Virus record (IMG/VR): IMGVR_UViG_3300045115_000211
Coordinates: 1 to 64,000 of that record
Length of the DNA: 64,000 bases
From: a virus
Strand: one strand, 5' to 3'
This document shows, one piece after another, positions 52,924 to 62,598 of this stretch. The notes beneath the pieces were generated by a model. That model searched no databases and was not told the DNA's origin. It saw nothing but the letters and a program-made list of their open reading frames with translations. Positions within the stretch are counted from its first letter, which is position 1. The number at the start of each line of letters is the position of its first letter. A program made the translations under genes and the position numbers.

Positions 52924-52994
52924 ATTTCATCCTTCGATGCCGTCAATCAAAAACCCTTCTCGGGATGCTGGATGTTTCAACCATAGGAGATCAC

Positions 52995-54161
52995 ATGAGA
53001 ATAGGCCTATATGCCGCAACTCTTGACCCCATCACGAAGGGCCACCGCTGGATCATCGACGAGGCCGCCGGAATGTTCGACAAGCTCGTGGTCGCGGTCG
53101 CCGACAACCACGAGAAGCGCGGCAAGGTCATGTTCAGCGCCGAGGAGCGCGTCGCCATGGTCAAGGACACCCTCCCCCTTGGCCTCGAACTCGGCAATGA
53201 CGTCGAGGTCGTGACGTACGCCGGCGGGCATACCCCGCCGTTCACGGCGCGGTTCGCCAAGGCCATCGGGGCGACGCACCTCATCCGCGGCATCCGCAAC
53301 GAGGCGGACTTCACGGCGGAGCAGGCAATCCGTCACGTCAACCAGGACATCTGCCCGGAGGTCAGGACCGTCTTCCTCGTGCCGCCGCGGCACCTCTCGG
53401 AGGTCAGCTCCAGCATGGTCAAGGGCCTTGTCGGGTTCGACGGGTGGCGGGACGTCGTGGAGCGGTACGTCGATTCGCCTGTCGTGAAGCGGTTCCAGGC
53501 CAGGCGGCTGGAGGCCAGCGAGGTCCTGATGCGCCTGGGAGCGTCATACTCGTGCGCCTTCGCCGCCAAACAGTTCCTCGACAAGGCGTACGGGGACATG
53601 TCCGAGTCCAGCCGGGTCTACCACAACGACCGCCACATCAGGGAGTGCCTTGGGCTGATGGACATGGTGGTTTCCGACAGCCACGTCAGCCCCCAGGACT
53701 TCGACGAGATCGCCGCCGCCCTATGGTTCCACGACTGCGTCTACGACGTCGGGTCGAAGAACAACGAGACCCGCAGCGCTGGGGAGTTCGGGAGGTTCGC
53801 CTCCGAGATCAACACGGACGTCGTGGCGACCGTCAAGAGGATGATCGAAGGCACGAGGGAGCATGCGTTCAGCGGCGAGCACAAGGCGAACGTCGTCAGC
53901 GACATCGATATGGCGATCCTCGCGGCGCCGGCGGCGAGGTTCGGAGAGTACGAGGACGCGATCCGGCGCGAGTACGGCCACATCCCCGACCCAATGTTCT
54001 ACCCAGCCCGAAGGAGGTTCCTTGAGAGCTGCCTAGCCGGGCCGGTCTACTATGCCGAGAAGTTCCGGCCGCTTCGCGCGCGGATGGCCGAAAACGTCCG
54101 GCGGCTGCTGGCGACCGAGCCGTACGCCAAGAGGTGGGATCTGCAAGGCAATGAGGGATAA
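52995..54161 (+). CDS. coaD: Phosphopantetheine adenylyltransferase fused to an HD-domain protein
   Basis: 388 residues. Residues 1-160 are a CoaD nucleotidyltransferase: LYAATLDPITKGH (T/HxGH motif), VAVADNHEKRGKVMFS, THLIRGIRNEADF and a closing VSSSMVKG. Residues about 170-380 are an HD phosphohydrolase-like domain (VYHNDRHIRECL near 208; ALWFHDCVYD near 245, then a helix with NNETRSA), resembling COG4339-type predicted metal-dependent phosphohydrolases. CoaD adenylates 4'-phosphopantetheine to dephospho-CoA. The HD domain may hydrolyse a related nucleotide. The arrangement is not one I know from cellular CoaD. Codon use is uniformly GC-rich, so this is a resident phage gene. Confidence 0.87.
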   Translation: MRIGLYAATLDPITKGHRWIIDEAAGMFDKLVVAVADNHEKRGKVMFSAEERVAMVKDTLPLGLELGNDVEVVTYAGGHTPPFTARFAKAIGATHLIRGIRNEADFTAEQAIRHVNQDICPEVRTVFLVPPRHLSEVSSSMVKGLVGFDGWRDVVERYVDSPVVKRFQARRLEASEVLMRLGASYSCAFAAKQFLDKAYGDMSESSRVYHNDRHIRECLGLMDMVVSDSHVSPQDFDEIAAALWFHDCVYDVGSKNNETRSAGEFGRFASEINTDVVATVKRMIEGTREHAFSGEHKANVVSDIDMAILAAPAARFGEYEDAIRREYGHIPDPMFYPARRRFLESCLAGPVYYAEKFRPLRARMAENVRRLLATEPYAKRWDLQGNEG

Positions 54162-57518: not shown

Positions 57519-58034
57519 GTGGACGACATGGGACTCGCTAGGGCCTTCGCGGAGTCCGATCCTGGGCTCAGGGTCTTCGTCCGGTCATGCCTGCGCGACG
57601 ACTCCGACGCGGACGACGTCGTGCAGGAAGTCTGGCTCACGGTCGTCCGCAAGCTGCCGTCGTACGACAGCTCAAGGTCGTTCAGGGCATGGGTCTTCGG
57701 CATCGCGAGGATGCAGGTGCTCAAGTGGCGCCAGTCCAAGGCCAGGCGCCGGGAGTTCGCCGTGCCGGACGAGACCATCGCCCAGATGTCGCAGGCCGTC
57801 GAGGACGGGCCTGTCGGGCCCAGCGCGTGCGAGGACGCCATACGCAGGTGCCTCGAAAGGATGGGCGGAAGGCCGAGGGAGATGCTGCGCCTCAAGTACG
57901 CCGTCGGGCTGAAGTCGGCCGAGATCGCCAGGAGGCTGGGGATGACGTCGGGGGCGGTGGACATGGGGCTGACGAGGGCCCGCAGGGCCCTGCGCGCGGC
58001 GGTCACGGGCATGTTGAGGAGGGAGGGGGAATGA
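57519..58034 (+). CDS. ECF-type RNA polymerase sigma factor
   Basis: 171 residues (GTG 57519; ATG 57528 is an alternative). Region 2: LRVFVRSCLRDDSDADDVVQEVWLTVVRKLPSYDSSRSFRAWVFGIARMQVLKWRQ. Region 4: MGGRPREMLRLKYAVGLKSAEIARRLGMTSGAVDMGLTRARRALR. This two-domain layout is the ECF (group 4) pattern. No anti-sigma gene is adjacent. Second sigma-like gene in the window; it may control a timed class of phage promoters. Confidence 0.9.
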   Translation: MDDMGLARAFAESDPGLRVFVRSCLRDDSDADDVVQEVWLTVVRKLPSYDSSRSFRAWVFGIARMQVLKWRQSKARRREFAVPDETIAQMSQAVEDGPVGPSACEDAIRRCLERMGGRPREMLRLKYAVGLKSAEIARRLGMTSGAVDMGLTRARRALRAAVTGMLRREGE

Positions 58035-59553: not shown

Positions 59554-59717
59554 AGGTCCACATCGTCAGGATGTACGGGAACGTCGAGGCCATCTGCGAC
59601 AACGAGGCCGACGTCGGGCGCATCAGGAGGGAACTCCTGGAAGGCGAGGAGCTCAAGGAAGACATCGTCGAGGTCGAGACTGTCGAGACGAACCAGGTCA
59701 TCGGAGACCACGGATGA
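59550..59717 (+). CDS. Hypothetical acidic protein, 55 aa
   Basis: Unrecognised; a strand (VHIVRMYGN) followed by an acidic helix (RRELLEGEELKEDIVEVETVE). ATGA overlaps at both ends couple it to its neighbours, including coaB. Confidence 0.5.
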   Translation: MKVHIVRMYGNVEAICDNEADVGRIRRELLEGEELKEDIVEVETVETNQVIGDHG

Positions 59718-60505
59718 AGGTACTGCTGACGAGCGGAGGGACGCGTACGGCGATCGATGCGGTGCGCCATGTGGGCAACATGTCCTCTGGCACCTTCGGG
59801 AACCACCTCTGCAGGGCGTTCCTTGAGGCTGGCCACGACGTGACGTTCCTGTACGCCAAGGGCAGCAAGTGCCCGCACGAGCTGCGTCTGTCGCTTGGGC
59901 AGGCATTGCTGGAACCCCAAAGCGACGACTGGACGTCCTGTGTCCAGCACGGTCTTGGCGATCTCGTGGCGGAACAGTTCGGCTTCCTGGCGTCGTGCCG
60001 GGACAGGTATCGCCCCACTTGGTACGACAACTTTGACGGCTACGCCGCCGAATTGTTCCGGCTCATCGGGAGCGTCCGCCCCGACATCGTCGTCCTGGCC
60101 GCCGCCGTGAGCGACTACGCCCCCGTCAAGGCGGAGGGCAAGATCAGCTCCGAGCTGGACGAGATGACGATACGGCTGGAGAAGACCCCGAAGCTCATCC
60201 GCAAGGTCAAGGATGTCCTGCCGGAATGCTTCCTCGTCGGGTTCAAGCTCCTCGTCGACAGCACGCAGGAGCAACTCGAAGCCGCGATGGCGGACCAGAT
60301 GGCGAAGGCGAGGACGGACATGGTGGTCGGCAACGACCTGCGGGACATCAAGGCCGCGAGGCACGTCCTGACGATCCTCGGGATCGACCAGCTCTTCTAC
60401 CGGTTCGATCCTATGCCGGGCGCCGAGCTGGCGAGGGAACTGGCGGAGGAGATCACGACGCAGGCGAGGACGCTCCGCGGCGAGCACCGCCGCATCGGGG
60501 CGTAG
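59714..60505 (+). CDS. coaB: Phosphopantothenate-cysteine ligase
   Basis: 263 residues. VLLTSGGTRTAIDAVRHVGNMSSGTFG is the CoaB/DFP opening, AAAVSDYAPV near 130 and KISSELDEMTIRLEKTPKLIRKV near 145 supply the nucleotide and phosphopantothenate contacts, and FLVGFKLL plus MVVGNDL complete the domain. It joins cysteine to 4'-phosphopantothenate. In most bacteria CoaB is fused to CoaC; here it is free-standing, with CoaC about 1 kb downstream in the same run of genes. Confidence 0.92.
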   Translation: MKVLLTSGGTRTAIDAVRHVGNMSSGTFGNHLCRAFLEAGHDVTFLYAKGSKCPHELRLSLGQALLEPQSDDWTSCVQHGLGDLVAEQFGFLASCRDRYRPTWYDNFDGYAAELFRLIGSVRPDIVVLAAAVSDYAPVKAEGKISSELDEMTIRLEKTPKLIRKVKDVLPECFLVGFKLLVDSTQEQLEAAMADQMAKARTDMVVGNDLRDIKAARHVLTILGIDQLFYRFDPMPGAELARELAEEITTQARTLRGEHRRIGA

Positions 60506-60964: not shown

Positions 60965-61039
60965 ATGGACCCCTTCGGGATGGGCGTCGTGGTACACGAC
61001 ATCGGGAAATGCGGAGGGATCAGGGATGTCAAGCACTAG
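60965..61039 (+). CDS. Possible 24-residue peptide
   Basis: ATG 60965 to TAG 61039, overlapping the start of the Pth2 gene by 14 bases. It could merely be leader sequence for pth2. Confidence 0.25.
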   Translation: MDPFGMGVVVHDIGKCGGIRDVKH

Positions 61040-61430
61040 GATGGCGATAGTCGTACGGCGTGACCTGAACATGCCGCCGGGGCTGCTGGCGGCGCAGGTC
61101 CTGCACGTGGGGATGCTGTTCGTGCAGGACTCATGGAAGGTGTGCCGCCACGAACTCGGCGAAGACCGGTATTCCCTTGAGTTCGAGCCTGGCGAATGCG
61201 AGTGGATACAGCAGCCATACGTCGCCGTGCTAGGCGTGGACACGCCCGAGGAGCTCGCGGCCGTCCAGAAGATGGGCGAGGACGAGAAGTTGCCCGTGAG
61301 GGTTTGGAAGGACGTCATACCGTCCAAGGTCCTCGAAGGGCGCGTTCTGGAGTGCGTGGTCGGCATATCCATCGGGCCCGCCGACTCCGACCGGATCAGG
61401 AAGGCGACGGGGACGCTGCCGCTGTTCTGA
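61026..61430 (+). CDS. pth2: Peptidyl-tRNA hydrolase, PTH2 (archaeal/eukaryotic) type
   Basis: 134 residues. IVVRRDLNMPPGLLAAQVLHV is the PTH2 opening, the middle has YVAVLGVDTPEELAAVQKM, and the end VVGISIGPADSDRIRKATGTLPLF is the family's closing signature. PTH2 releases tRNA from stalled peptidyl-tRNA and is typical of archaea and eukaryotes, while most bacteria use an unrelated Pth. A phage copy could recycle tRNAs during fast translation or stress; it pairs conceptually with rtcB. Confidence 0.85.
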   Translation: MSSTRMAIVVRRDLNMPPGLLAAQVLHVGMLFVQDSWKVCRHELGEDRYSLEFEPGECEWIQQPYVAVLGVDTPEELAAVQKMGEDEKLPVRVWKDVIPSKVLEGRVLECVVGISIGPADSDRIRKATGTLPLF

Positions 61431-61440
61431 GGAGGACGAC

Positions 61441-62598
61441 ATGAAGGTGCTGGTGGGCATGACCGGGAGCGTGGCGACGACCATAGCCCCCAAGATCGTC
61501 AAGGCGATCGAGGATGGCGTCCCACTTCTGGACTCCGTCGAGGTCGTGATGACCGACAAGGCCCAGATGTTCTTCGGGGCGGATGCCCTGCGGCGTCAGG
61601 CTGGGGTCAGGGTCTACACGGAGCGGGACGAGTGGATATGGAGCAGGAGAGAGCACCCGAACTTCAACAGCCCATACCCCATCCCACCCGAGGACAAGTG
61701 GCAGAAGGGAGACCCCATCCTGCACGTCGAGCTCGCCAAGCGGTCGTCCTGCCTCGTCATCGCCCCGGCGTCGGCCAACACCCTAGGCAAGATGGCGCAC
61801 GGCATCTGCGACAACCTCCTGACGTCCGTGTTCCTCGCGTGGCGGAGGAGCCGCCCCGTCGTCGTCGCCCCGTCGATGAACTCCCACATGTGGTCGTCCC
61901 CCGTTGTGCAGGCCAGCCTCAAGGACCTGCGGGCGACGAACCCCAACATCGTCGTCGTGCCTCCCGTCGAGAAGGAACTCGCGTGCGGGGACGTGGGGGT
62001 CGGGGCGCTCGCCGACGCGGGCGACATAGCCAAGGCGGTGGCTTGCGCCCTGCGCTGGGACTTCCCCCTTCCGGAGACGACCTGCCCTGGCATCCCCGTC
62101 GGGAACCACCTCGGCTCGTTCGGGATCGTCCGCCGGCATGGCAAGCGCCATTGCGGGGTCGACCTGTACTGCCGGAACGGGACGATGGTCACGGCGGTCG
62201 AGCCCGGGGTCGTCGTCGCCATCGATGGCTTCACCGGGGCGTCCGTCGGCTCGCCATGGTGGAACGAGACCAAGGCGGTCAAGGTGGAGGGGGCGAGCGG
62301 GGTCGTCTGCTACGGTGAAATCAGGCCGTACTTGAGCCTCAAGGTCGGCGACATGCTCGGCAGGGGAGACCCCTTGGGGCAGGTGGAGCAGGTCCTGCCG
62401 GACGGACAGTTGCGCGGCGACATCCCCGGCCACTCGCTATCGATGCTCCACATCCAGCTCTACGAGCATGGCCGCGTCCACAAGGACGAGTCGTGGCTGG
62501 AGGGGCAGCCCCAGCCCGGCGGCGTCCTCGACCCCACGCCCTTCCTGCTGGACTGCTGGAAGGGCCTGACGCTGGACATGCCGGAGGCAAAGGCGTGA
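61441..62598 (+). CDS. coaC: Phosphopantothenoylcysteine decarboxylase fused to an M23-like domain
   Basis: 385 residues. Residues 1-200 are a CoaC flavoprotein: VLVGMTGSVATTIAPKIV, ILHVELAKRSSCLVIAPASANTLGKMAHG (active-site His near 100; SANT flavin motif), DNLLTSV and APSMNSHMW (the PxMNxxMW substrate clamp). Residues about 225-350 read as an M23/LytM-like fold: HCGVDLYCRNGTMVTAVEPGVVVAI (HxxxD near 237) and MLHIQLYEHG near 335, where M23 enzymes have HLHFE; the first His of HxH is Met, so peptidase activity is doubtful. CoaC makes 4'-phosphopantetheine. The fusion of a CoA enzyme with a peptidoglycan-hydrolase-type module is highly unusual. Confidence 0.87.
   Translation: MKVLVGMTGSVATTIAPKIVKAIEDGVPLLDSVEVVMTDKAQMFFGADALRRQAGVRVYTERDEWIWSRREHPNFNSPYPIPPEDKWQKGDPILHVELAKRSSCLVIAPASANTLGKMAHGICDNLLTSVFLAWRRSRPVVVAPSMNSHMWSSPVVQASLKDLRATNPNIVVVPPVEKELACGDVGVGALADAGDIAKAVACALRWDFPLPETTCPGIPVGNHLGSFGIVRRHGKRHCGVDLYCRNGTMVTAVEPGVVVAIDGFTGASVGSPWWNETKAVKVEGASGVVCYGEIRPYLSLKVGDMLGRGDPLGQVEQVLPDGQLRGDIPGHSLSMLHIQLYEHGRVHKDESWLEGQPQPGGVLDPTPFLLDCWKGLTLDMPEAKA

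Follow-up and report, generated by a model that had tools for sequence, protein, structure and literature searches.

Two protein families that would not be expected in one chain appear to meet in a single viral gene. PPC decarboxylases (CoaC) are, to our knowledge, found standalone or fused to CoaB and never to an M23 fold, and M23 domains are mostly known from peptidoglycan hydrolases and their inactive relatives outside the cytoplasm. A preliminary description of a 64,000-nucleotide stretch of viral DNA (hereafter the window; positions 1 to 64,000 of IMG/VR record IMGVR_UViG_3300045115_000211) nevertheless proposed that one of its genes joins CoaC to a degenerate M23-like module. This raises the question of whether the fusion is genuine, and of what an M23-type domain would do when attached to an enzyme of coenzyme A (CoA) synthesis.

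One gene encodes a CoaC domain and an M23 fold

The gene is a single plus-strand open reading frame of 385 codons (61441-62598), running from an ATG at 61441 to a stop codon at 62596-62598. A GAGGAGG ribosome-binding sequence lies just 5' of the ATG, and third-position GC stays at 0.87-0.98 along the whole gene, junction included, indicating that no frameshift has joined two genes. AlphaFold2, given an alignment of 51 sequences drawn only from the window and the scanned loci, predicted two domains with a mean pLDDT of 92.4 and a pTM of 0.89; prediction from the single sequence reached a pLDDT of 35, and the alignment-based model was used instead. A full-length counterpart was found by tblastn against phage records in the 735-kb phage LR756501 (34% over 97%). 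A viral scan with the single protein as query gave no matches; profile scans of IMG/VR then yielded 15 more fused records (loci L008, L009, L012, L063, L064, L065, L066, L067, L100, L101, L102, L104, L105, L107 and L113, with L104 and L105 close to each other), for a total of 17 with LR756501 and the window.

CoaC and the M23-fold domain are thus a real fusion within one protein. An artefact of assembly or sequencing, or a chance read-through, has nothing to commend it but the oddity of the arrangement and one relative (L124) whose halves lie in overlapping frames. Against it stand the unbroken codon bias over the junction, the confident two-domain model and the recurrence of this architecture in 16 other phage records, the last of which already refutes it; its probability is virtually nil. 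Related phages therefore do carry the fusion, as the preliminary description had suggested checking, and the joining by error that it had allowed for did not materialize.

The N-terminal half (residues 1-202; 61441-62046, plus strand) was described earlier from flavoprotein decarboxylase motifs in the first 200 residues, in agreement with the Pfam and PDB matches. Residues 1-171 match Pfam Flavoprotein (PF02441) at 6.5e-27, and the top PDB sequence matches are PPC decarboxylases from human (2e-34) and Arabidopsis (7e-32; 1qzu and 1e20). A Foldseek search of the PDB with the fusion model also placed PPC decarboxylases on top (1mvn, 3.5e-18), with all of the matches listed falling on this half. 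Its motif residues H95 (at the active-site histidine position), N147 of PSMN and C182 of ACGDxGxG are invariant across 10 aligned fusions, such that the Flavoprotein fold occurs together with H95 and the PxMN and ACGDxGxG motifs, a fold and set of active-site motifs held in common with CoaC, AtHAL3a and human PPCDC. For both CoaC and CoaBC, the half falls short of the NCBIfam equivalog cut-offs. Judging from these residues and matches, it is probably a working-type FMN phosphopantothenoylcysteine decarboxylase, with PPC decarboxylase activity.

The same fold is found in the peptidyl-cysteine decarboxylases EpiD, MrsD and CypD, which match weakly, and a peptide substrate would suit an M23 fold that processed the same peptide, the two halves then serving a peptide modification system encoded by the phage. 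PPC decarboxylases are, however, far closer in sequence (2e-34 versus 3e-13), and CoaB adjoins, CoaD lies in the same window and relatives carry CoaE, making a peptidyl-cysteine decarboxylase highly improbable.

The C-terminal half carries an M23-fold domain (residues ~206-375; 62056-62565, plus strand). Residues 236-317 match Pfam Peptidase_M23 (PF01551) at 6.6e-5, a significant score under the gathering cut-off, which relatives of the domain exceed (7e-10 and 1.9e-10). This half also matches a PHROG endolysin family (3e-6), and a domain-only family profile compared with solved M23 enzymes matched zoocin A at 1.3e-7. Searched against viral models by Foldseek, the fusion model retrieved PPC decarboxylase and then many Peptidase M23 and endolysin models, from 2.5e-7. 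Because sequence profile and predicted structure agree, the M23 fold is supported, and the different fold that had been named as a refuting outcome did not appear; HMMs, AlphaFold2 and Foldseek bear out both halves of the proposed fusion. The Flavoprotein and M23 folds themselves are both already known.

The bifunctional CoaBC resembles the fusion in being a two-domain protein with CoaC first and of similar length. Its second domain, however, is CoaB (DFP), whereas that of the fusion is M23-like. We rejected ordinary CoaBC as the identity of the protein, since its C-terminal half has no DFP match, leaving no DFP domain C-terminal to CoaC in the chain, and CoaB is a separate gene (59714-60505).

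Residues kept and exchanged in the M23-fold domain

The HxxxD, the later LH and the methionine in place of the first histidine of HxH that had been noticed are all present, as H237-CGV-D241, L336-H337 and Met335. A second changed catalytic position, which had gone unmentioned, lies in the YGH motif, which reads YGE293. In a set of 87 sequences, with every readable member counted and two rows partial, the metal-ligand positions H237, D241 and H337 as well as E293 and M335 are kept in 86/86 readable homologues, at a family identity of only 30-50%. While Hx3D served in finding some family members, E293, M335 and H337 did not, and members recruited through CoaC motifs keep Hx3D as well.

The first histidine of HxH in M23 enzymes is not a zinc ligand but a proposed water activator, and a histidine ~30 residues before HxH (His260 in LytM) may assist water activation (PMC9662197). 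Given these roles, the family has kept its M23 zinc ligands (Hx3D and the second histidine of HxH) and exchanged both catalytic histidines, for Met335 and Glu293. The term degenerate therefore holds insofar as the classical M23 catalytic residues are absent, but the invariance of the replacements and of all three metal ligands indicates a conserved subfamily in its own right rather than one in decay. The retained triad suggests that the domain is occupied by metal.

With the M23 peptidases LytM, lysostaphin and zoocin A, the domain shares the fold, Hx3D and the second histidine of HxH; it differs from them in carrying Glu293 and Met335 for the water-activating histidines, in having no apparent secretion signal and in its CoA/DFP gene context. 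Neither the window protein nor the standalone members read show an apparent signal peptide or wall-binding domain, and the domain is probably cytosolic. LECT2, EnvC and NlpD likewise have an M23 fold minus the catalytic residues (PMC9662197). LECT2-type loss of a catalytic histidine, taken alone, would fit the family, but LECT2, EnvC and NlpD act outside the cytoplasm, whereas the family described here keeps the full metal triad together with invariant replacements and, unlike proteins defined by loss of zinc ligands, retains all three. An M23 domain inside a large metabolic-type protein is also seen in PRK06148 / NF004799 (~1015 aa, with M23 central), in which the region beyond M23 is presumably C-terminal aminotransferase-like. 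We considered PRK06148 as the source of the domain and rejected it, as its M23 keeps the canonical YGH and HLH and scores ~20 bits against the family.

Gene neighbourhoods in phages and bacteria

CoaB lies within ~2.1 kb of the fused gene in all 17 records, and directly follows it in LR756501. In 7 further loci the M23-like domain has its own gene in the vicinity of CoaB and CoaC, and the gene order varies: CoaC-CoaB-M23 (L014), M23-CoaB-CoaC (L114, L117, L119 and, with a 1.8-kb gap, L120), CoaC-M23-CoaB (L121), and, at L124, CoaB with CoaC and M23 behind it in overlapping frames, the last of which may be a frameshift because L124 falls inside a fused group in the domain tree. One more locus (L118) has a partial 72-aa M23-like copy before CoaC. 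At approximately 12 phage CoaB-CoaC loci an M23-like gene is absent from the vicinity, implying that CoaC does not need the domain. As one candidate set was chosen by CoaC motifs, with confirmation using the fused protein, the tally of fused and separate genes was not simply selected for the M23-like domain.

Many large phages carry the domain as a standalone protein of ~155-280 aa; among them are Stenotrophomonas phage RAS14, Xanthomonas phage XacN1 and Pseudomonas phage PA5oct, in which the annotation reads hypothetical protein or M23 peptidase. The neighbour family that recurs on the sense strand is CoaB-like (17 loci). Another small recurrent neighbour group, on mixed strands (6 loci), looks HNH-like by eye. 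No CoaB or CoaC neighbour was found within 2.5 kb for 50/87 M23-like copies, including most standalone phage copies, and among the 32 carrier records searched 30 had no Flavoprotein gene and 19 no DFP gene, from which it follows that the domain has a life outside the CoA pathway too.

The family profile also matched one gene in each of 11 bacterial genomes at ~166-231 bits, the only other match reported in these genomes scoring 21 bits. A DFP gene adjoins 8/14 bacterial M23-like copies. In Alphaproteobacteria (one record is titled Micavibrio) an HTH-DFP-AldolaseII gene mostly lies directly upstream of the M23-like gene, and in a set of 142 genomes from one order 9 had both the domain and DFP-AldolaseII, 2 and 3 had only the one or the other, and 128 had neither (Fisher 2e-10, calculated over genomes that are related to each other). 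The DFP-AldolaseII type is found beside or near the domain in two phage loci as well (L040 and L031). Individual loci illustrate these arrangements: at L132:3439-5456 and similar bacterial loci an HTH-DFP-class II aldolase gene has the M23-like gene directly downstream; in a Novimethylophilus operon (L134:3449-5480) a DFP gene, an ArgC-like reductase gene and the M23-like gene follow one another with overlapping start and stop codons; and at L040:2825-5092 an M23-like-methyltransferase fusion gene comes immediately after a DFP-AldolaseII fusion gene. The domain tree is weakly resolved, with CoaB/C-linked copies scattered over several groups, suggesting without proving that the link to CoaB/C arose more than once.

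These neighbourhoods bear on whether the M23-like half could be a peptidoglycan hydrolase or a wall-binding tether serving lysis or entry. Its fold is M23, its nearest phage family is a PHROG endolysin, and M23 lysins are used by many phages. The canonical catalytic histidine pair, however, is missing in all members, the proteins read show no apparent signal or wall-binding domain, the recurrent neighbours are CoA/DFP enzymes rather than lysis genes, and bacterial genomes carry the domain beside DFP genes. A lytic or tethering role is thus very hard to credit, and the cell-wall tether proposed in the preliminary description is not supported, given the absence of any apparent signal peptide or wall-binding domain and the recurrence of CoaB, CoaC and DFP as neighbours.

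CoA synthesis genes and a proposed role for the M23-fold domain

The CoaB of the window (59714-60505, plus strand), a phosphopantothenate-cysteine ligase-like protein of 263 aa, matches DFP at 3.8e-29 and is closest to the Streptococcus-type CoaB model (4.5e-37) and PDB 2gk4; it scores under the equivalog cut-offs and carries an insertion. A CoaD (phosphopantetheine adenylyltransferase) of 398 aa with a C-terminal extension is encoded at 52965-54161 (plus strand), with 123.7 bits against TIGR01510, above the cut-off of 103.3, and a match to PDB PPAT at 2e-22. Its C-terminal ~200 aa, to which no Pfam or NCBIfam model matched, look HD-hydrolase-like by eye (YHNDRH, FHD), and the full-length arrangement of CoaD plus extension is also seen in the 462-kb phage LR756500 (28% over 90%).

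CoaB, CoaC and CoaD, all encoded in the window, give the phage three of the final four steps of CoA synthesis. In LR756501 and in the L121 phage, CoaD and CoaE lie side by side, in addition to CoaB and CoaC (the LR756501 CoaE/CoaD pair is in L168, 603765-604714, and a second such pair is in L170), the CoaD of the L121 phage being slightly under the cut-off; these two records hold four consecutive late CoA steps per genome. CoaE is also present in the phage of L105. In the phage of fusion locus L064, a gene at L166:1486-2469 has a CoaD-like domain and then a P-loop (GKCCSGKST) kinase-like stretch, possibly a CoaD-kinase fusion. The CoaD, CoaE and CoaB context supports the view that the CoaC half belongs to genuine CoA synthesis, where it would follow the CoaB step of the phage and precede its CoaD step. 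A search of the fusion phages for ACP or PP-binding domains, a possible use of phosphopantetheine, gave none above cut-off.

Combining residues and neighbourhoods, we think it probable that the M23-like half binds metal, is not lytic and serves CoA/DFP enzymes as an M23-fold partner: a cytosolic domain that would work with CoaB-type (DFP) enzymes and not on peptidoglycan. The metal would most likely be retained for chemistry, with Glu293 replacing the water-activating histidine as a possible general base. Whether the domain is an enzyme at all is a speculative and evenly balanced matter. If it is one, it may hydrolyse or otherwise act on an amide-containing small molecule of the pathway, or on a cysteine-containing peptide feeding the pathway; a CoA-pathway amide or a cysteine donor as its substrate is speculative and rather doubtful. 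Possible reactions, none of which we prefer, are those of a pantetheine-type amide hydrolase, a cysteine-donating peptidase and a carrier-release enzyme.

The main alternative, tentative but to be taken seriously, is a non-catalytic module for binding, oligomerisation or regulation, such as a metabolite sensor or a CoaB-CoaC dock; the sensor or scaffold suggested in the preliminary description is thus possible. Both histidines with water-activating roles are replaced, and M23 proteins without catalytic residues mostly serve protein-protein interaction (PMC9662197); fusion and operon linkage would also fit docking. Conversely, invariance of the metal ligands and Glu293 at 30-50% identity goes beyond the usual demands of binding, the partners vary (CoaC, DFP-AldolaseII, methyltransferase), and for many copies no CoA partner lies in the vicinity. 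Given that triad and Glu293 are invariant, an altered metalloenzyme is somewhat favoured over a passive scaffold, and the recurrence of the partnership across many huge phages suggests that CoA metabolism has recruited a wall-enzyme fold.

A broader and unlikely proposal is that this 'YGE-MLH' M23 family forms a new class of cytosolic metalloenzymes partnering CoaB-type ligases in phages and bacteria. The ligase would load a carrier with an amino acid, an exchangeable third enzyme (CoaC, the class II aldolase-like domain or the Novimethylophilus ArgC-like reductase) would modify the amino acid, and the M23-fold enzyme would release or rearrange the product, which could give huge phages their own modified CoA or cysteamine-forming pathway.

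In the open-access literature we found no description of phage CoaB or CoaC, of a CoaC-M23 fusion or of this M23 subfamily in CoA operons; one jumbo phage, PhiMa05, has been reported with a CoaD gene. If the proposed partnership is true, the intact triad, fixed Glu/Met pair and CoaB/DFP linkage would represent a different use of the M23 fold, and the standalone "M23 peptidase" copies of PA5oct and XacN1 have probably been misread as lysis-type enzymes. Phages with CoaB, CoaC and CoaD, and in two records CoaE, would make phage control of host CoA supply testable. The window also encodes a PTH2 peptidyl-tRNA hydrolase (61026-61430, plus strand), whose gene immediately precedes the fusion gene, and a sigma-70-family protein with regions 2 and 4 (57519-58034, plus strand).
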